64,000 nucleotides of DNA, taken from the NCBI GenBank assembly GCA_035934015.1, contig DASYYH010000003.1, forward strand, positions 124,001 to 188,000, read 5' to 3'. Both the position numbers and the translations under genes were made by a program. Positions 12,590-22,502 of this stretch are shown here, one piece after another; position 1 is the first letter of the stretch; the number at the start of each line of letters is the position of its first letter. The stretch is from Candidatus Acidiferrales bacterium (GTDB lineage: Bacteria; Acidobacteriota; Terriglobia; Acidiferrales; UBA7541). A model generated the notes under the pieces. That model was not told where the DNA came from. It searched no databases and saw only the letters and a program-made list of their open reading frames with translations.

Positions 12590-15052
12590 TTATTCGGAGC
12601 GCAAGGCTTGCACGGGATCCACGGCGGCGGCGCGCATGGCCGGAACCGCGCAGGCCAGCGCCGCAGCGGCCAGAATCACGGCGGAGGAAAGAATGAGAGG
12701 CACGGCGCCAGGCGATTCCAATTGGGCGACGGCATTGCCGAGGATGCGCTCGAGGCCGAAGCCCAGCAGAAACCCCGCCGCAACACCGAGGCAGGCGATG
12801 ACCACGCCTTCCCACAGGACGTTCGTCAAAATCCTGCGCGGATGCGCGCCCAAGGCGATGCGGATGCCGAATTCGCGCGTGCGTCCGCTGACCGAGAAAG
12901 CCAGAACGCCGGCGACGCCAACGATGGAAATCAAAAGCGCGAGACCGGCGAAGCCTCCGAAGACAAGGGCGTTCAAGCGATCCGGCGACATCACCTGGGT
13001 GCGAATATCCTGCAGCGTGCTGGCCTGCTCGACGGGCTGGTTGTAGGACATCTGATGAATCATCTGCGTGAGCGTGGGAACGAGGGCGTAAGGATCGCCC
13101 TTGGTGCGCACGAAGAGGCGGCCCGCCCAGCCTTCCTGATCGGCGGGCTGATAGACGGTCATCGAAGGCATGGGAATGATGTTTTCATCGTCGAAATCCG
13201 GAACGACGCCGATGATGCGGCGCGGCGCGTAGGCGATGCCGATGAATTTCATCACGCCGTCAGTCCAGCGCAGTTGATGATTGAGCGCGTCTTCGCCGGG
13301 AAATAACTGATCGGCGATGCTTTTGCTGACGATGACCACAGGCTCGGCGCCTTCGCGATCGCTGGCATTGAAATCGCGGCCTTCGATGATGGGCACGCCG
13401 AGAGTCTGAAAATAGCCGGGCGCGATGGAGCGGAAGTTCGCGCGCAAATCTTCCTGGCCGTTTTCGCGCGTGGCGCCTTCGACGGCAAATTGAAATTTGA
13501 TTTGCAGGGCGTTGGTGTCACGCCACGGAACGCCGAAGCCCTGGGAGGCGCTGACGACGCCGGGAAGCTCGCTGACCTGAGTCTGCACGCGGCGATAAAA
13601 ATCGCGCACCTGATCCGGCGTGCGGCCCTCGGTCATCACCGGCAAATCCACGGCGAGGACGTGCGCGGTCTCGAAGGGAGGCTGCGTTTTTTCGAGTTTC
13701 AGGAGAGTGCGCAGCAGCGCGCCGGCTCCGGCGAGCAAGAGAAACGAGGCGGCGATCTGCGTCACAGCAAAAATGCGCAGGCGGCGCTTGCTTCCGCCGG
13801 TGACGCGCGTGCCATTCGTCGAGAGGCTGAAGCCGCGCGAGGAATCGCCAGACGGAAGGCGCGGAACAAATGCGAGAAAAACGGCAGCAATCAGCGCGAG
13901 GCCGACTCCCATCCACACGAGGCTGAAATCAATGGGCATGTCGATCGCCCGCACGGAAAAACGCGCCGCATAGCGCGCGAGGATCCTGGCCATCGGCGCG
14001 GCGATAATCACACCCAGAAGCGCTCCGCTGCCGCACAGGAGCAGGCTTTCCGCCAGCAGCGAACGGCGCAGCGCAGCTGTGGACGCGCCGAGCGCGGAGC
14101 GGATGGCGATTTCGGATTCGCGGCGCACGGTGCGCGCGAGAATCAGATTGGCGACGTTGGAGCCAGCGATGATAAAGAGCAGACCGGAAGCCGCGAACAA
14201 AATCCACAGGATGGTCTCCGCGCGCGAGTTGATCTGGTCGTGCATGAGCGTGGCGCCGATTTGCCACTGGTCTTGCGACTTGTACACCTCAGGATGCGCG
14301 GACAGCATGGCGCCATAGACGACGCGAAGTTCGACGCGCGCGGCATCGAGCGTGGAGCCCGGGGCGAGGCGGCCAAAGACTTCCGTCATGCGATGCTCGC
14401 GGCCCTGAACCATGGTGGCCGAAAGATGATGCGGGCTGGTGACGATGTTGGCGATGAGCTGCGTTTCCACCGGGTACGGCACGGAAGGCTGGAGGACGCC
14501 GATGATGGTCGCCGAGCGCGTTCCCTGGATGCTGCCGAGGCGGACGGTCTTGCCGAGCACGGAAGGATCGGAATGCAGATCCGTGGTCCAGAAACGATAC
14601 GTCAGCACAACGGCGCCGGCGGCGTTGGGGCCATCATCGCCGGGACCAAGCAGGCGACCGAGAACAGGATGCAGGCCCATGACGTCGAAATAATTGCCGT
14701 CGACGACGCCGGCGTGAACCTCGCGCGCTTCGCCAAGACCGAGGACGGTGAAGTCGATCTCAGAGAAAGTACCAAACTCCTTGATGGTCTTGAGGCGCGC
14801 ACCGATATCCTGAATTTCGGGAATGGAGAAGGTGGCGTTCTCGACGCCCATGCCGGGAGCGCTCTGGCGAATGTAGAGCAGATGGTCTTCGTCGCGATTG
14901 GCCAGCGGCCGGAGGAGGACGCCGCGAACCACCGTGAAGATGGCGGAGTTCGCGCCGATGCCGAGGGCCAGAGTGACGGCTACGGTGAGCCATAACGCGC
15001 GAGCGCGAGACAGCGACCGCGTCGCGACTTTCAGATCGTAGAGAATTGACAT
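12590..15052 (-). CDS. MacB/FtsX-type ABC transporter permease (large acidobacterial type)
   Basis: 820 residues. Helix 1 is at about 20-42, followed by a periplasmic MacB core domain, a first FtsX block near 280-400 (RRESEIAIRSALGASTAALR), a second periplasmic domain, and a C-terminal FtsX block (GRTREFGIRIALGAHPRRIL, last ~120 residues). This duplicated architecture is the large permease form abundant in Acidobacteriota. It lacks the N-terminal prefix domain and no ATPase gene is adjacent, so the ATPase must be supplied from elsewhere. A role in export or mechanotransmission of small molecules across the envelope is inferred. Confidence 0.9.
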   Translation of the reverse strand: MSILYDLKVATRSLSRARALWLTVAVTLALGIGANSAIFTVVRGVLLRPLANRDEDHLLYIRQSAPGMGVENATFSIPEIQDIGARLKTIKEFGTFSEIDFTVLGLGEAREVHAGVVDGNYFDVMGLHPVLGRLLGPGDDGPNAAGAVVLTYRFWTTDLHSDPSVLGKTVRLGSIQGTRSATIIGVLQPSVPYPVETQLIANIVTSPHHLSATMVQGREHRMTEVFGRLAPGSTLDAARVELRVVYGAMLSAHPEVYKSQDQWQIGATLMHDQINSRAETILWILFAASGLLFIIAGSNVANLILARTVRRESEIAIRSALGASTAALRRSLLAESLLLCGSGALLGVIIAAPMARILARYAARFSVRAIDMPIDFSLVWMGVGLALIAAVFLAFVPRLPSGDSSRGFSLSTNGTRVTGGSKRRLRIFAVTQIAASFLLLAGAGALLRTLLKLEKTQPPFETAHVLAVDLPVMTEGRTPDQVRDFYRRVQTQVSELPGVVSASQGFGVPWRDTNALQIKFQFAVEGATRENGQEDLRANFRSIAPGYFQTLGVPIIEGRDFNASDREGAEPVVIVSKSIADQLFPGEDALNHQLRWTDGVMKFIGIAYAPRRIIGVVPDFDDENIIPMPSMTVYQPADQEGWAGRLFVRTKGDPYALVPTLTQMIHQMSYNQPVEQASTLQDIRTQVMSPDRLNALVFGGFAGLALLISIVGVAGVLAFSVSGRTREFGIRIALGAHPRRILTNVLWEGVVIACLGVAAGFLLGFGLERILGNAVAQLESPGAVPLILSSAVILAAAALACAVPAMRAAAVDPVQALRSE

Positions 15053-15079: not shown

Positions 15080-15409
15080 CTAGCCGCCGGCGATGGCGCC
15101 GATGACAAGAAACGGTTCCGCGCCAGATGCGACGGCTTCTGGCAGCGGCGTATCCTGAGACACGTGCGAATAATCCTGGGCGCAAGCGAAAAAGCGGACG
15201 TAGGCACGGCGCTCGTGCGTGGCGTGGTCGCGAATCGTGCCTTGCAGCATGGGATAGCGCGCCTCGATGGCGTCGAGGACAGAGCGCAGCGTGACCGGGC
15301 CTTGAACTTCGAGCTTCAGATCGCCATTGACGTGCGCGAGCGTGCGCAGATGCGCGGGAAGCGCGACGGTGACCGTCGAACGAGCCGTTGCGTGCGGCTG
15401 CGAACTCAT
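15080..15409 (-). CDS. ThiS/MoaD-like ubiquitin-fold sulfur carrier protein
   Basis: 109 residues with beta-grasp features ([13 protein letters not shown]..., [15 protein letters not shown]) and the C-terminal Gly-Gly of the sulfur-carrier family (GAIAGG). In ThiS and MoaD this terminal Gly is adenylated and thiocarboxylated. The adenylating enzyme is not in the window, nor are thiamin or molybdopterin genes, so a specialised carrier role is likely. It begins 4 nt after the stop of the PhnB-like gene, in the same operon. Confidence 0.8.
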
Positions 15410-15413
15410 CGCA

Positions 15414-15836
15414 TCACGCGGATTGCTGCGCGACCTGCCGGCAATTCACCATCCAGGGAATGCCGAAGCGATCCGTGAACATGCCGAAGCGCGGGGACCA
15501 GAACGTCTCCTGCAGCGGCATGCTGATCTTCGCGCCTTCGGTGAGGGCATTGTAGATGCGCTCGGTGGCGGCAATGTCGTTGAGTTGAATCGTGACAATA
15601 ATTCCGGCGGGCGTGTGGTAATGCGACGGAGGCGCGTCGCAGCCCATAAGCGTCTGATCGCCGGCGACGAGCATGACGTGCATGACCTTGCTCCCCCACT
15701 CCGGCGGGACATCCTGCCGGCCGGGCGCGTCGGAATAGCGACTGATGGACTGGATTTTGCCGCCGAGGGCCTGCGCGTAGAGATTGAATGCCTCTTCGCA
15801 ATTACCGTTGAAATTCACGTGCGCGATGAGTTGCAT
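15414..15836 (-). CDS. PhnB-like VOC family protein
   Basis: 140 residues. It opens [26 protein letters not shown], the usual PhnB/3-demethylubiquinone-methyltransferase-like VOC start, and ends with [25 protein letters not shown]. The ATG at 15836 follows AAGGAG. Members of this group are small dimeric proteins of unclear activity despite the 'PhnB' label, and no phosphonate genes are nearby. It is the first gene of a two-gene unit with the ThiS/MoaD-like protein. Confidence 0.88.
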
Positions 15837-15873: not shown

Positions 15874-16632
15874 TTATCCCTTAGGAATTGCGAATGTTCC
15901 GTCCGACCACCTTCGCGTGCTGATAGGGAAAACATTAATCACGGGCAGCTCCTTGAGCCGAGGATACGCGTGATCGGATAAATCCCAGAAGGAAATGCTT
16001 CCAATCGGGGAGCCGGCCGCATTTGCGCCCCAAGAAGCGTCGTCTGACGCGGTGTAAAACATCAGATGGGGAGCGTTGTGTTTCCCCTTATCCGTAAGGT
16101 ACGAGCCTTTGCCCATCATGTAGCTCAGCGCGCCTGGCTCCAAGGCGGGAAATTCCTTCTTGGCGAAGGAGGCGCTGAGCGCGGCGACGACTTCTGCTCT
16201 TGATTTGCCGGCCATGAGCAATTCGGTTTTTTCGCGGATGATGGGCAGAACAGAACGCACCGCAGGCGGATTGATGCAGTTGGCGCCGTGAACTTTCGGA
16301 CTCCAAAATTCCGGCAAATCGAACGGCGCTCCAAAACCACGTTCGACGAAACAGACGAAGCCATTCGTGCCTGTGATGGCGGTTTCGTAGCCGTGGCGGC
16401 CGAGAACGAGGATCGTCGCATCGCGCGAAATCGATTCCGGCGCGCCGCTGCGCGCCAAAGCAATCTCCGCGTCACGGTTCATCAAATATTCGGAAACGGG
16501 AGCCATGCGGGGATATTGCGGCTGGGAATTTTGCGCTTGCGCCGCCCGCGGAGCCAGCGCGAAAAGCAAACCCGTGATTCCACAAATGGCGATTGCGAAT
16601 ATCCTGCTGCACTTCGATTTGCATTGCACCAT
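15874..16632 (-). CDS. Secreted protein of an unrecognised paralogous family (copy A)
   Basis: 252 residues with a signal peptide (about 1-33, ending RAAQAQ). The mature protein shares with the copies at 18024 and 18734 a core: YPRMAPVSEY, NRDAEIALARSGAPESISR, ILVLGRHGYETA, GTNGFVCFVER, a conserved NCINPPAVRS with a second Cys, EPGALSYMM and a WSDGT end. Two cysteines conserved in all three could form a disulfide. I recognise no domain. It is more diverged than the two adjacent copies and separated from them by the BNR propeller gene. The ribosome site is weak. Confidence 0.7.
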   Translation of the reverse strand: MVQCKSKCSRIFAIAICGITGLLFALAPRAAQAQNSQPQYPRMAPVSEYLMNRDAEIALARSGAPESISRDATILVLGRHGYETAITGTNGFVCFVERGFGAPFDLPEFWSPKVHGANCINPPAVRSVLPIIREKTELLMAGKSRAEVVAALSASFAKKEFPALEPGALSYMMGKGSYLTDKGKHNAPHLMFYTASDDASWGANAAGSPIGSISFWDLSDHAYPRLKELPVINVFPISTRRWSDGTFAIPKG

Positions 16633-16726
16633 TTTACTTTTTCTCTTTCTCTACCCCATTTCCCTACTGAATCCCTGTTCTGCTTTGCATACCGCCCCAG
16701 CCGAAGTGTGCGCTGCTTCCGGCGCG

Positions 16727-17914
16727 CTACGCCAGAGTTTGCACCTCCACTGAAAGCACGGCGGGAAGATCGTGGGCGATGGCGCTCCAGTTATCGCCGC
16801 CATCGGGAGAAACGTACACCTGCCCGCCGGTGGTGCCGAAGTAGATGCCGCATTTATCGAGCGTGTCCACGGCCATGGCGTCGCGGAGCACGTTGACGTA
16901 GCAATCGCGCTGCGGGAGACCCTTCGTCAACTCTTCCCATTCGTTTCCGCCAGTCCGGCTGCGGTAAACGCGCAGCTTGCCATCAAGCGGGAAATGCTCG
17001 CCATCGCTCTTGATGGGCACGACATAAATCGTCTCCGGTTCGTGCGCGTGGACGTCAATGACGAAGCCGAAATCCGTGGGCAAATTGCCGCTGACTTCGG
17101 TCCAGTTGTCGCCGGCGTCGTTTGAGCGCATCACGTCCCAGTGTTTCTGCATGAACAGCATTCCCGGGCGCTTGGGATGCATAGCGATATGATGAACGCA
17201 GTGGCCGATCTCCGCGCCGGGATCGGGAAGATAATTCGAGCGCAAGCCCTTGTTGATCGGCTTCCAGGTTTTGCCGCCATCATCGGTCCGAAACGCGCCC
17301 GCAGCGGAAATGGCGATAACAATGCGCTTGGGATTGCTGGGATCGAGAATCACCGTGTGCAGGCACATGCCGCCAGCGCCGGGCTGCCATTTCGGGCCTG
17401 TACCGTGGCCGCGCAAGCCGGAAAGTTCCTGCCAAGATTTTCCCGCATCGCCGGACCGGAATAGCGCGGCGTCTTCGATGCCGGCGTAAACCACGTCGCG
17501 CTCGGTGAGCGAAGGCTCGAGATGCCAGACGCGCTTGAATTCCCAGGGATGCTGCGTGCCGTCGTACCACTGATGCGTGGTGAGCGGCTTGCCGGTTTCG
17601 GCGGAAGTGTCGTAGACGAATTTGTTGCTCTCGCCTTTCGCGAAGCCGTGCTCGTCGACATTCTTCTGGCCGGGAGGAGTGCCGGGCTGAATCCAGGTCT
17701 TGCCGCCATCATCGGAGCGCTCAATGATCTGGCCGAACCAATCGCTGACCTGCGACGCGAAGATACGATTCGGGTCCACGGGCGAACCTTTCATGTGAAA
17801 GACCGGCCAGCCGGCAAAGAACGGGCCGCTGATTTCCCACTTGTCGCGTTTGCCATCCGCCAAGCAGACGAATGCGCCCTTGCGCGTCCCCACCAGAACT
17901 CGAACTTTGCTCAT
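16727..17914 (-). CDS. BNR/Asp-box beta-propeller protein (sialidase/sortilin-like fold)
   Basis: 395 residues, no signal peptide. At least six Asp-box motifs: [40 protein letters not shown] and SPDGGDNW. These mark the blades of a BNR-type propeller as in sialidases, sortilin and photosystem assembly factor Ycf48. The catalytic Arg triad of true sialidases cannot be assigned, so enzymatic activity is doubtful. ATG at 17914 follows AAGGAG by 7 nt. It sits between paralogues A and B of the secreted family, with the ThiS/MoaD-like gene downstream. Confidence 0.82.
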
Positions 17915-18023
17915 CACTCGCTCCTTCGCAATTTTTTGACTGCGCTCTTGCAGCTACACTAATCACTTCGGCCGTTACTTCCAAATTCCGTCACGGAGAA
18001 AAGCTATTCCAGCACTTCCAGCG

Positions 18024-18737
18024 TTACTCTGAGACTGCCGACGTTCCGTCCGACCACACTGGCGTAGCAATGATGTATAAGCTTACGGGGATGGGAGCGC
18101 CCGGAACATCTGGTCGAAGCATCTGAACCGGCGATCCAGCCAGACTTTCGCCCCAAGCGGTGCCTTTCGGAACGAAAAACATCAAGTGGGCCAGGTTGTG
18201 GTTGCCCTGATCGGTCAGATACGCTTCCTTAGACATCATGTAGCACATGGCTCCCGGCTCGAGAGCGGGCACTCCTTTGGTGCCGAAGGCCTTTTCTCCC
18301 GCCATGATTTGTTCTTTTGAATCGCCAGCCAAAACCAGCTCGGTCCTCTTCAGAAGCAGCGGAAGCATGGACCGCGCGGCCGGCGGATTGTAGCAGTCTG
18401 GGCTGCGATTCTTGGGATTCCAAAACTCGGCGCTGGCATAGCCGGCCCCCCAAGATCGTTCCACCAGGCATACGAAACCATTCGTGCCTTTAACGGCAGT
18501 TTCATAGCCATGCGCACCGAGAACCAAAATCTCGGCGTCGCGGGAGATGGACTCCGGCGCGGCGGTGCGCGCCAGAGCGATTTCGGCGTCGCGATCCGCC
18601 ATCATGTACTGGCTGATCGGCGCCATCTTTGGATACGGACCATTGTTGTCTTGTCCCTGCGTTCCCTGAGGTGTCGCGAACGCAAGGACCAAAGCCAAAA
18701 TCAGGAGAACCGTTGCGGTAAATTGCTTTCGACTCAT
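18024..18737 (-). CDS. Secreted protein of an unrecognised paralogous family (copy B)
   Basis: 237 residues. The signal peptide is MSRKQF plus a hydrophobic run, ending near TQGQDN. Mature core: YPKMAPISQYMMADRDAEIA, APESISRDAEILVLGAHGYE, GTNGFVCLVERSW, DCYNPPAARS, LEPGAMCYMMSKEAYLTDQG and WSDGTSA. It is nearly identical to copy C in the first 90 mature residues. The ATG overlaps the TGA of copy C (ATGA), and GGAGGG precedes it, so the pair is translationally coupled. Function unknown. Confidence 0.72.
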   Translation of the reverse strand: MSRKQFTATVLLILALVLAFATPQGTQGQDNNGPYPKMAPISQYMMADRDAEIALARTAAPESISRDAEILVLGAHGYETAVKGTNGFVCLVERSWGAGYASAEFWNPKNRSPDCYNPPAARSMLPLLLKRTELVLAGDSKEQIMAGEKAFGTKGVPALEPGAMCYMMSKEAYLTDQGNHNLAHLMFFVPKGTAWGESLAGSPVQMLRPDVPGAPIPVSLYIIATPVWSDGTSAVSE

Positions 18738-19453
18738 TGGTTGCCCTCCGCAGGTGTTCCGTCCGACCACTTAGCCACGGGAACGATAAACTCCGTCATC
18801 GGCTCGGGGGCACCTTGAGATACATCTTGCCACCCTTGTATGACCGGGGAGTCAGGTAGACCGGCGCCCCAGGTCGCGCCGTCCATGGGCGGAACTTCAA
18901 ACATCAGATGGGATAGCGGGCGCTTGTGATCGCCGTCGTACGCTTCTTTCGACATCATATAGCACATCGAAGCAGTTTCCGGAGTGGACAGTTCTTTCTT
19001 GTCGAACGCGGCTTCGATGCGCCGGATCACCTGGTTCTTGGACAGCCCAGCCAAGAGCATCTCTTGCCTCTTCTCCATGGCAGGTAGAATGGATCGCGCG
19101 GCGGGCGGGTTGTAGCAGATCGGAGCGCGAATTTTTGGATTCCAGAACTCCGGGTCGCCAAACGGTCCCCTCCATGATCGCTCTACCACACACACGAAAC
19201 CATTCGTGCCTTTGACGGCAGTCTCGTAACCATGCGCACCGAGGACCAAAATCTCTGCGTCGCGGGAGATGGACTCCGGCGCGGCGGTGCGCGCCAGAGC
19301 GATTTCGGCGTTGCGGTCCGCCATCATGTACTGGCTGATCGGAGCCATGTTCGGATACGGCGTTTTGGAATTCTGGGCGCGAACCGGCATCGCCGCGCCC
19401 AGACCCGCCAATAACGAAAAACATGCAATCGCCCTGATTATACTGGGGGTCAA
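18734..19453 (-). CDS. Secreted protein of an unrecognised paralogous family (copy C)
   Basis: 239 residues from a TTG start 7 nt after AAGGAG; the upstream extension in frame has no ribosome site. A signal peptide ends near MPVRAQN. The same core as copies A and B follows, including YPNMAPISQYMMADRNAEIA, GTNGFVCVVERSW, ICYNPPAARS and a WSDGTPA end. The copy overlaps copy B by 4 nt. Strong identity between B and C at the DNA level (the stretch covering DAEILVLGAHGYE) points to recent tandem duplication. Confidence 0.72.
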   Translation of the reverse strand: MTPSIIRAIACFSLLAGLGAAMPVRAQNSKTPYPNMAPISQYMMADRNAEIALARTAAPESISRDAEILVLGAHGYETAVKGTNGFVCVVERSWRGPFGDPEFWNPKIRAPICYNPPAARSILPAMEKRQEMLLAGLSKNQVIRRIEAAFDKKELSTPETASMCYMMSKEAYDGDHKRPLSHLMFEVPPMDGATWGAGLPDSPVIQGWQDVSQGAPEPMTEFIVPVAKWSDGTPAEGNQ

Positions 19454-19488: not shown

Positions 19489-19515
19489 CAAAAAGCAGAC
19501 CCTTCTCGCATCCCT
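19489..19515. repeat. Fragment of dispersed repeat family 1
   Basis: ACAAAAAGCAGACCCTTCTCGCATCCC resembles only the left end of the copies at 7787 and 47494. The right end (GGGATGACA) is missing. Confidence 0.35.
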
Positions 19516-19567: not shown

Positions 19568-20035
19568 CTAAGCTTTCGCTGCTCCAGCTTGCTGCGGTTG
19601 CATCATCTTCATCATCTGACGCATCGCAGCCATCTGCCCCGGCGTGCGCTTCTCGCTCCAAGCTTCGAAGCGTTCCGCCGCTTTCTCCAAATGCGCGACA
19701 AACTGCTTGTTCGCAAAACGCTGACGCGCCTCCGGAATGGTGGGCTTGATGCGTTCCCACACGCCGACAAATTCGCCGGTGGTTTCAAAAAACAGATCTT
19801 CGTTGAGCAGACCGTGGTTCAGCATCGCGCAGGCCTGGTCCCAATAGCTGACCACCATCATGAAAAACGCGCCCTGTTCAGAACCCATCGGGGCGATTTT
19901 CATGGCATCGTCAAGCGTCTCTGCGAAGAAATTCTTGAAGAACCAGTCGCGCGCCTTGCGCAACCGCTCTTCGCGGCGCAAATCGTAAAGTTTCAATTGA
20001 AGTTGCGCCTGCTCGTGCGTCGGTTTCGTTTCCAT
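19568..20035 (-). CDS. Hypothetical helical protein (haemerythrin-like size, no motif)
   Basis: 155 residues, probably all-helical and cytosolic. Notable stretches: KARDWFFKNFFAETLDDAMKI, FFMMVVSYWDQACAMLNHG, and a Met/Gln-rich end (MAAMRQMMKMMQPQQAG). ATG follows AAGGAG. Similar short proteins annotated only as hypothetical occur in soil bacteria, and I cannot name the family. It lies upstream of copy C on the same strand but is separated by about 115 nt containing a repeat fragment. Confidence 0.65.
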   Translation of the reverse strand: METKPTHEQAQLQLKLYDLRREERLRKARDWFFKNFFAETLDDAMKIAPMGSEQGAFFMMVVSYWDQACAMLNHGLLNEDLFFETTGEFVGVWERIKPTIPEARQRFANKQFVAHLEKAAERFEAWSEKRTPGQMAAMRQMMKMMQPQQAGAAKA

Positions 20036-20259: not shown

Positions 20260-20916
20260 TCATGCGTGTCCGTATTGCGGGGTCGCCGCGCCTCCCTCGT
20301 ATGGATTTCGCACGAGCCACAGAGGAAAACCCTGCTGGGAACGATCGGCTTGCACATTCAATCCCCATGGCCACCGGATGGTGCGGGGCTTCGCATCGCG
20401 GCTCTCAAACTGCAAGGTCCCGGCGGCGGCAGCCACGAAGCTCGGCAAAAATCCTACGGGATCGCGCGCGCGCCAGCGGCGGCGAACTTCGGCGATGACC
20501 GCGCTGCGATTTTCGGCCATTTTCGTCACCAATTCCGAGGCCGCGCCGGTATGTTCGTGATTTGTGGCCCAAACGAGGAGATCCAGGATGACGGGCGCGA
20601 GGTCGATTCCCTTCTCCGTGAGGTAATAACCGACGCGGCGGCCATCGGCCGGATCAGGCTCGGCAACGAGGATGCCACCCGCCTGAAGCTTGCGGAGGCG
20701 ATCGGTCAAAATATTCGTGGCGATGCCTTCGCCGGATTGCTGGAATTGCTTGAAGCTGTGATAGGCGCGAACCATGACGTCACGAACGATGAGCAGCGAC
20801 CAGCGGTCGCCGACAAGTTCGAGGGAGATGTTCACCGGGCAGCCCGAACGATGCTCCGAATAAGAATACGCTGAAGCCGGAGGCTTGGATTTCGGGCTGG
20901 ATTGGTTCGTTGGCAC
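20260..20916 (-). CDS. HxlR-family transcriptional regulator with C-terminal extension
   Basis: About 218 residues. The HxlR winged helix is clear: CPVNISLELVGDRWSLLIVRDVM, FQQSGEGIATNILTDRLRKL, and the wing DPADGRRVGYYLTEKGIDL. An extra ~90 residues follow, longer than the usual 110-140-residue HxlR protein. A TTG at 20952 in frame lies inside a perfect palindrome, so I place the start at the GTG at 20916; neither has a good ribosome site. HxlR regulators respond to electrophiles or redox signals; autoregulation via the palindrome at 20936-20956 is likely. Confidence 0.8.
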   Translation of the reverse strand: MPTNQSSPKSKPPASAYSYSEHRSGCPVNISLELVGDRWSLLIVRDVMVRAYHSFKQFQQSGEGIATNILTDRLRKLQAGGILVAEPDPADGRRVGYYLTEKGIDLAPVILDLLVWATNHEHTGAASELVTKMAENRSAVIAEVRRRWRARDPVGFLPSFVAAAAGTLQFESRDAKPRTIRWPWGLNVQADRSQQGFPLWLVRNPYEGGAATPQYGHA

Positions 20917-20935: not shown

Positions 20936-20956
20936 TCACTTGCATAATGCAAGTGA
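20936..20956 (-). promoter_or_regulatory. Palindromic operator upstream of the HxlR gene
   Basis: Perfect inverted repeat TCACTTGCA-TAA-TGCAAGTGA, 9-bp arms with a 3-bp spacer. It lies just upstream of the proposed start of the HxlR gene, the expected place for an autoregulatory site. Confidence 0.65.
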
Positions 20957-21088: not shown

Positions 21089-21637
21089 TTACTTCTGGCC
21101 GAGGTTGAAAACGATGCTAATGGTGACGCGTTCGGTCTTGGTTTGGGAGCCGCTCGTATTGACACCAACATAATCAAACTGCGGTCGTAGCGCGATTTTG
21201 CCGTCTTTGGCGATGCCTATGTCTGTACCGCCACCAAAGCTATAGGCAAAGTTGCTGCTTCCCGGGACGGTGACGCCTCCGGAAGTGATGGAGTTTTGAT
21301 GGGCGCCGCCGAACAACGCCTGAACGAACGGCACGAACCTATCACTCGAGCGGAACGAAACGCGAGGTCCAAACATATACGACTCGAACGTCAGGCCGAC
21401 TCCGCTTTCCGTCCCGTGATAGACGCCGAAATCGCCAACGACGCCGAACATGCTGGTAATGTTGTAGGCTGCCGAACCGCTAAACCCGTTTGTGTTCAGG
21501 CCAGACGCGCCGTTTGAGCCATTGACGTGCAGGTACGAATAACCGAAGGCTACGTCCGCCTTGGGCACATCCTGCGCATGCGAAGTCATGGCCACCAGGC
21601 AGAAGGCAAGGGCTATCCAAATGAGCTTCTTCATCAT
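21089..21637 (-). CDS. Outer membrane beta-barrel protein
   Basis: 182 residues. The signal peptide MMKKLIWIALAFCLVAMTSHAQ precedes a mature part built of alternating beta strands (ADVAFGYSYLHV, FSGSAAYNITSMFGVVGDFG, FVPFVQALFGGAH, FAYSFGGGTDIGI, and the end RVTISIVFNLGQK). The size fits an eight-stranded OmpW/OmpA-like barrel. GGGGAGA precedes the start. Function as a porin or adhesin cannot be decided. Confidence 0.82.
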   Translation of the reverse strand: MMKKLIWIALAFCLVAMTSHAQDVPKADVAFGYSYLHVNGSNGASGLNTNGFSGSAAYNITSMFGVVGDFGVYHGTESGVGLTFESYMFGPRVSFRSSDRFVPFVQALFGGAHQNSITSGGVTVPGSSNFAYSFGGGTDIGIAKDGKIALRPQFDYVGVNTSGSQTKTERVTISIVFNLGQK

Positions 21638-21962: not shown

Positions 21963-22502
21963 ATGAAGGGTTTTATGCTCGGAGTGCTGGTGACACTTTT
22001 CGTCGCAATTGGCGCGGGACTTTACGTTGCCGAGACGGGGCGTATGGACATGCGCGCGGATCAGCAACCTTCCGCTACGGAGACGCGGCTGGCGATGCAT
22101 GCACTGGATGAAAGCGTGGATCGCAGCGCGCCGCACTTGACGAATCCCCGCCCGCCGACAGAAGCGAATCTGGTGCACGGCGCCACGATTTATCTGGAGC
22201 ATTGCGCGATGTGCCATGGCGATCCGGTGCATACGCGCTCGCCGCTGGCGGATACGCTCAATCCCCCGGCGCCGCAGTTCGCCGAGGATGCGCCGGACAT
22301 GCCGGCTTATCAGAACTACTACATCACGGCGCATGGAATCCGCTGGACAGGCATGCCGGGATGGAAAAATGTGCTGCGCGACGACGAGATTTGGGACGCA
22401 GTGACATTTCTTTCGCACATGGGAAACCTGCCTCCGGCAGCGAAATCCATTTTCGCGCTGAATGGACAAACGACGGCTGCTCCGGGAAAGCGCACAAAGT
22501 GA
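21963..22502 (+). CDS. Membrane-anchored mono-haem cytochrome c
   Basis: 179 residues. An N-terminal helix (residues 4-23) anchors or exports the protein. A single haem-attachment site, CAMCH, is at about residue 80, followed by a cytochrome c class I-like domain with MPGW as candidate distal Met. Strong GGAGGGTG ribosome site. It acts in the periplasm in electron transfer and depends on the Ccm system encoded at 57.6-64 kb. Its stop overlaps the GTG of the next small membrane-protein gene. Confidence 0.88.
   Translation: MKGFMLGVLVTLFVAIGAGLYVAETGRMDMRADQQPSATETRLAMHALDESVDRSAPHLTNPRPPTEANLVHGATIYLEHCAMCHGDPVHTRSPLADTLNPPAPQFAEDAPDMPAYQNYYITAHGIRWTGMPGWKNVLRDDEIWDAVTFLSHMGNLPPAAKSIFALNGQTTAAPGKRTK

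Follow-up and report, generated by a model that had tools for sequence, protein, structure and literature searches.

The window analysed here, a stretch of 64,000 nucleotides on contig C3 of the genome designated G000, which its closest named relatives place in the Terriglobia (Acidobacteriota), contains three genes (P0001, P0002, and P0003) of a large superfamily of apparently exported proteins that is present in none of the catalogues searched. We consider it about an even chance that their products are disulfide-braced ligand-binding proteins made from an operon that is under the control of an HxlR/DUF24 regulator with a thiol sensor. The family and its boundaries, the joint loss of its two cysteines, its HxM motif, the gene order, and the candidate operator palindrome at the HxlR genes were all directly computed. 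Regulation of the family by an HxlR-linked operon is well supported, and the membership of the family genes in such an operon is new here; the identity of the ligand is not well supported.

All three genes are real ORFs on the minus strand (Table 1), and the motifs quoted for them in a previous sequence-only reading were found, aligned, in each. The products can be aligned across their entire mature length, with a core identity of 55–64% (64% between P0002 and P0003, and 55% between P0001 and P0002), and each begins, by inspection, with a signal-like segment. The TTG start favoured for P0003 is preceded, seven bases upstream, by the Shine-Dalgarno sequence AAAGGAG, and it matches the end coordinate of the sequence-only reading. 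The 4-nt overlap that had been reported for two of the genes corresponds to the ATGA shared by the stop codon of P0003 and the start codon of P0002. The paralogues are indeed neighbours, but the array is not cleanly tandem, as had been claimed, because P0002 and P0001 are separated by a BNR-repeat gene. G000 carries six family copies in all, including three beyond the window on contigs C11 and C26. Since the same core is found in relatives from other genera and families, the family does not represent a chance likeness.

Table 1. Features of the predicted operon in the window and related gene arrays at other loci
Feature	Coordinates	Strand	Remarks
P0001	15874..16632	minus	252-aa family member, signal-like N-terminus; from ORF and alignment
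P0002	18024..18737	minus	237-aa family member, ATG start; from ORF and alignment, with AlphaFold2 model of the mature part
P0003	18734..19453	minus	family member; best start TTG 19453, alternative GTG at 19489
HxlR (MarR/DUF24) regulator	20260..20916	minus	N-terminal ..SGCP.. cysteine; probable GTG start near 20916
Candidate HxlR operator	20936..20956	strandless	perfect 21-bp palindrome TCACTTGCATAATGCAAGTGA preceding the HxlR gene
DUF4760 protein	19568..20035	minus	between regulator and P0003; the G002 locus has one too
BNR/Asp-box repeat protein	16727..17917	minus	Sortilin-Vps10 match; signal peptide not obvious
PhnB-like glyoxalase/VOC protein	15414..15836	minus	same operon
MoaD/ThiS-like small protein	15080..15409	minus	by inspection (ends ..AGG); no Pfam match at E<=0.001
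MacB/FtsX-type ABC permease	12590..15052	minus	last of the gene run
Alternating family/tannase-type/epoxide-hydrolase-type arrays	L068 3643-10156; L073 2-7270		order kept in two genomes

On the minus strand, the genes for the HxlR regulator, the DUF4760 protein, P0003, P0002, the BNR protein, P0001, the VOC protein, the MoaD-like protein, and the MacB-like permease follow one another with mostly short gaps. They were assigned to one operon from spacing and strand only, and a 225-bp gap downstream of the HxlR gene leaves room for another promoter. Parts of the same gene order were identified in G001, G002, G004, and G142, the last of which belongs to another family of the class. The BNR protein shares 80–84% identity with its counterparts at the other four family loci that were aligned; its gene was found in 130 of the 201 related genomes and is nearly always single-copy in related Terriglobia. 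The operon is adjoined by a gene for a small protein that begins with a signal-like segment (21092-21637) and by a possible c-type cytochrome gene containing ..CAMCH.. (21963-22499), both of which are kept at the syntenic G001 locus.

The product of the regulator gene matches PF01638 (E 5e-16, 58.8 bits versus a cut-off of 20.8) and thus contains an HxlR winged-helix domain. The N-terminal cysteine is present in all six HxlR homologues read (..RSGCPV.., RRSGCPL, or RRSPCPL). Through this cysteine, DUF24 regulators sense quinones as well as aldehydes, formaldehyde among them (PMC8063818, PMC7835342); in YodB, quinones and further electrophiles react with it (PMC8063818).

A palindrome of the form TCACTTGCA-N3-TGCAAGTGA was found in the intergenic DNA of all six HxlR-linked loci, perfect in the window and imperfect at some of the other loci, most of all in G004. 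Besides its copy in front of the regulator gene, the window has no match at up to three mismatches (0.03 expected), and the exact core has a single match in G000. The looser pattern TCACTTG-N7-CAAGTGA occurs at 19 sites among the 201 related genomes, one per genome, compared with 0 sites for the reversed-pattern control. Of these 19 sites, 16 adjoin an HxlR gene belonging to this subfamily; among the other three, one lies near a contig end and two appear chance-like. The operon is probably switched on by HxlR and this 21-base palindrome in response to a chemical signal, although both the binding of HxlR to the palindrome and the nature of the signal are inferences. The motif has apparently not been named in the literature cited here, and the link between the family and a regulator with a precise candidate operator makes both regulation and ligand directly testable.

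One HxlR gene lies beside a family gene in each of G000, G001, G002, G004, G033, and G142; HxlR is rare in these genomes, which contain nine such genes in total and were picked for this count because HxlR had been seen in them. Sister genomes with common synteny account for four of the six linked loci, so that the independent linkages amount to approximately three lineages. At nine of the palindrome sites, the neighbour is a BNR gene and not a family gene. Together with the wide distribution of the BNR gene, this makes the HxlR–operator–BNR arrangement look like an older module to which the family was added in some lineages. The BNR gene of G033 lies 37 kb away, yet HxlR, the operator, and the family gene are still together, which argues that the family itself is an HxlR target.

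P0001–P0003 had no match at E<=1 in Pfam-A (which includes the copper chaperone family PF04314) or NCBIfam. Twenty farther relatives gave no Pfam match above the family cut-offs, ten of these gave none in NCBIfam, and a PDB sequence search with family proteins yielded nothing significant. The description of an unrecognised secreted family is supported by these searches, its secreted part by the signal-like N-termini seen by inspection. The profile of the three paralogues found matches in 17 of 61 near relatives, and a 35-row profile in 73 of 396 Acidobacteriota genomes. Plasmid searches added Rhizobium, Phyllobacterium, Bradyrhizobium, Sinorhizobium, Loktanella, Maritalea, Rhodobacter, Photobacterium, and Gemmatirosa; in the plasmid records examined, the relatives are labelled 'hypothetical protein' wherever an annotation is given. 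No relative was found in the viral contigs and phages searched. We divided the members into four subfamilies, namely A7 (the near one, to which the window proteins belong), A8, A5, and A6. In hhalign, every one of the six pairs of their profiles scored 98.0–99.9%, as against 0.4% and 0.9% for the unrelated controls, in which family profiles were compared with the HxlR and BNR families of the operon. According to these profile comparisons, the superfamily spans Acidobacteriota, Alphaproteobacteria, Photobacterium, and Gemmatimonadota, giving a name-worthy and testable family to many 'hypothetical' proteins, including those of soil and root-nodule bacteria.

In an alignment of 35 sequences, A56, A59, P61, A68, G77, G84, N86, C90, C115, G138, Y166, M167, H184, and M186 (P0002 numbering) are kept in all or all but one, with H184 present in 35/35 and Y166 and S169 near-invariant. 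The 'two conserved cysteines' of the sequence-only reading are C90 and C115: among 62 aligned members of the four subfamilies, 60 contain both, two contain neither, and none contains a single one. Being kept or lost together is the pattern expected of a disulfide, although the two losses may share an origin, and from this co-loss we infer that C90 and C115 form one disulfide. Apart from one half of a two-domain protein, all members carry HxM. Its place varies: it follows the YM strand in A7 and A8, is found only near the C-terminus (GAHIM) in A6, and occupies both places in several A5 members. YM and the first HxM are together present in A5, A7, and A8 and together absent from A6; therefore, neither is required by the superfamily.

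The features shared superfamily-wide are GxN, from which a few members vary, the Cys pair, and HxM, and these are retained in far relatives. The conserved core quoted earlier is found in all three paralogues, but its NPPA and WSDGT elements are restricted to the near subfamily. Likewise, among the Cys, His, and Asp positions singled out for checking, the Cys pair and H184 are conserved as described, whereas the Asp of WSDGT is not kept beyond the near subfamily. Neither a catalytic signature nor a matching fold turned up to bear out the suggestion of 'an enzyme or binding protein'; the most invariant positions, those of GxN, the Cys pair, and HxM, would suit a ligand-binding domain at least as well as an enzyme.

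AlphaFold2 models were generated from shallow input alignments of nine sequences, drawn from the window and from related loci. The best model of mature P0002 was confident, with a pLDDT of 86.9 and a pTM of 0.87 (the five models scored 86.9, 80.2, 79.6, 62.2, and 57.9 in pLDDT), and P0001, with a pLDDT of 78.9 and a pTM of 0.81, showed a similar secondary structure. The P0002 model is beta-rich with several helices, and its two cysteines lie on successive strands. Searches with both models against PDB, and with the P0002 model also against BFVD, gave best E-values of about 0.5–1.3 and probabilities of about 0.1 at most; the best VIA-align match (PurK; Z 2.1, rmsd 4.5, 95 aligned) is noise. The cupredoxin and MerB/NosL folds were not among the listed Foldseek and VIA-align matches, which does not amount to their exclusion. 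The lack of a credible match, for models from alignments this shallow, suggests that the family fold is uncommon, and it may be new. The family thereby gains a set of invariant residues and a predicted model for which solved structures offered no match.

At other loci, the two copies on contig C26 of G000 and three in G003 (C133) alternate, by inspection, with tannase-type esterase and epoxide-hydrolase-type genes, and these arrays end at a TetR-like gene. Among the other subfamilies, the Rhizobium member adjoins AHSA1 and ArsR, the Phyllobacterium member DUF899 and DJ-1, and the Maritalea member OsmC and GFA. The Loktanella member adjoins genes for an HTH protein, a ring-cleaving dioxygenase, and a dienelactone hydrolase, the last of which is also a neighbour in G033 and G124. 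In four genomes, A6 copies lie behind a molybdopterin oxidoreductase, and in one they lie behind a MauG-type di-haem peroxidase. These neighbours are suggestive of a role in small-molecule or redox stress. In two of the A6 loci, a two-domain gene and a single one lie directly behind a sulfite-oxidase-like molybdopterin oxidoreductase (L120 5705-8627 and L121 3758-6689), and the adjacency is similar in G310 and G174. A molybdo-enzyme partner (Oxidored_molyb) was rejected, because the adjacency was seen in only four of the genomes tested.

The copies also appear to turn over. The tree joins P0002 to its orthologue, the only syntenic copy in G001 (L007/L014, 74%), and P0001 to its own orthologue, the only such copy in G002 (L015, 66%), both groupings being starred, so that sister genomes retain different ancestral paralogues; the placement of P0003 is unresolved. 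Apparent pseudogenes with in-frame stops were identified in G290 (C2 1581478-1582166 and 2212100-2212663) and G385 (C2 106623-107311), which also hold intact copies. Such local multiplication and turnover fit accessory proteins tuned to varying ligands.

Under the explanation that we favour, the N-terminal cysteine of HxlR would sense an electrophile, oxidant, or similar small molecule, HxlR would act on the palindrome so that the operon is made on demand, and P0001–P0003, probably periplasmic or secreted judging from their N-termini, would bind or buffer a ligand rather than catalyse a reaction. Several points count against this explanation: no ligand or fold match was found; the HxM site is not uniform, A6 having only the second, C-terminal one and no YM; the neighbours at other loci are TetR, ArsR, or unrelated genes; the independent linkages to HxlR are few and come from genomes picked for having it; and the operon is read from spacing and strand. 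A His/Met site of the Cu(I) type is a possibility and the most specific testable idea regarding the ligand. A broader and rather improbable formulation is that of a widespread exported superfamily, with a fold unseen in solved structures and a His/Met site for a soft metal or an electrophile-derived ligand, that in some Terriglobia forms the exported branch of a thiol-stress regulon in which HxlR acts through a new operator.

Three other explanations compete with exported ligand-binding proteins. If the family consisted of secreted enzymes with a new fold, an active site could be made up of H184 together with N86, Y166, and S169, one that acts on a small organic molecule alongside the neighbouring hydrolases (dienelactone, epoxide, and tannase-type). 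The conservation of H184, Y166, and S169, the interleaved arrays of G000 and G003, and the dienelactone hydrolase genes adjoining members in Loktanella, G033, and G124 are in keeping with this idea; however, the A6 branch lacks the first HxM and YM, a conserved acidic residue or catalytic triad is absent, and alpha/beta hydrolases are abundant genes, leaving an enzyme unlikely. Similarly doubtful is a periplasmic metal-binding protein with PCuAC-like chemistry, in which M167, H184, and M186 would hold a Cu(I)-type metal that is released or captured under thiol or electrophile stress. It would account for HxM recurring in every subfamily, in one of its two places or in both, for the joint retention or loss of YM and the first HxM, and for the A6 copies behind molybdopterin oxidoreductases or a di-haem peroxidase, and HxM makes up half of the PCuAC motif, HXnMX21/22HXM (PMC13006917). 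Yet the family lacks the spacing of that motif, no Pfam copper family matched, no copper genes were seen adjoining the family genes, and the conservation of Met can reflect core packing.

The least probable alternative, for which we see little chance, is that these are locally duplicated surface or cell-envelope proteins, structural or adhesive, without a small-molecule role, which hitch-hike in the conserved HxlR–BNR module. The nine genomes in which the HxlR–BNR pair has no family gene nearby, and the near-universal distribution of BNR beside the patchy one of the family, would be explained in this way, but the arrangement in G033 and the conserved His/Met/Cys core speak against it.

Among known systems, the top PDB profile match was the alkylmercury lyase MerB/NosL (52 residues around PHxMfy, E 0.24, not significant); unlike in MerB, whose cysteines lie at the place of PHxMfy, none are present there in the family, and there is no Pfam match either. 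The family resembles the periplasmic Cu(I) chaperones of the PCuAC type (PF04314) in its beta-rich domain with a conserved HxM and in its probable export. It differs from them in that 16 residues separate M167 of P0002 from H184 and 19 separate M164 from it, in the several helices of its model, and in a Cys pair not called for by the PCuAC motif. A PCuAC-family copper chaperone was rejected because the MX21/22HXM spacing is absent, and therefore the family was not filed there. In Bacillus subtilis HxlR, the cysteine bridges to Lys13 with formaldehyde (PMC7835342). In contrast, the regulator in the window and its homologues (SGCPV, SGCPL, or SPCPL) have no Lys at this position; therefore, a formaldehyde Cys–Lys bridge is not expected, and formaldehyde sensing by that mechanism is unlikely. 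As in the HxlR/MarR-DUF24 thiol-sensor regulons (YodB and HxlR of B. subtilis), the regulator possesses an HxlR winged-helix domain with a conserved N-terminal cysteine, a candidate palindromic operator lies beside the regulator's own gene, and a VOC-type gene is part of the operon. What sets this system apart from the YodB/HxlR regulons is the operator TCACTTG-N7-CAAGTGA and its putative targets, the exported family and the BNR protein.
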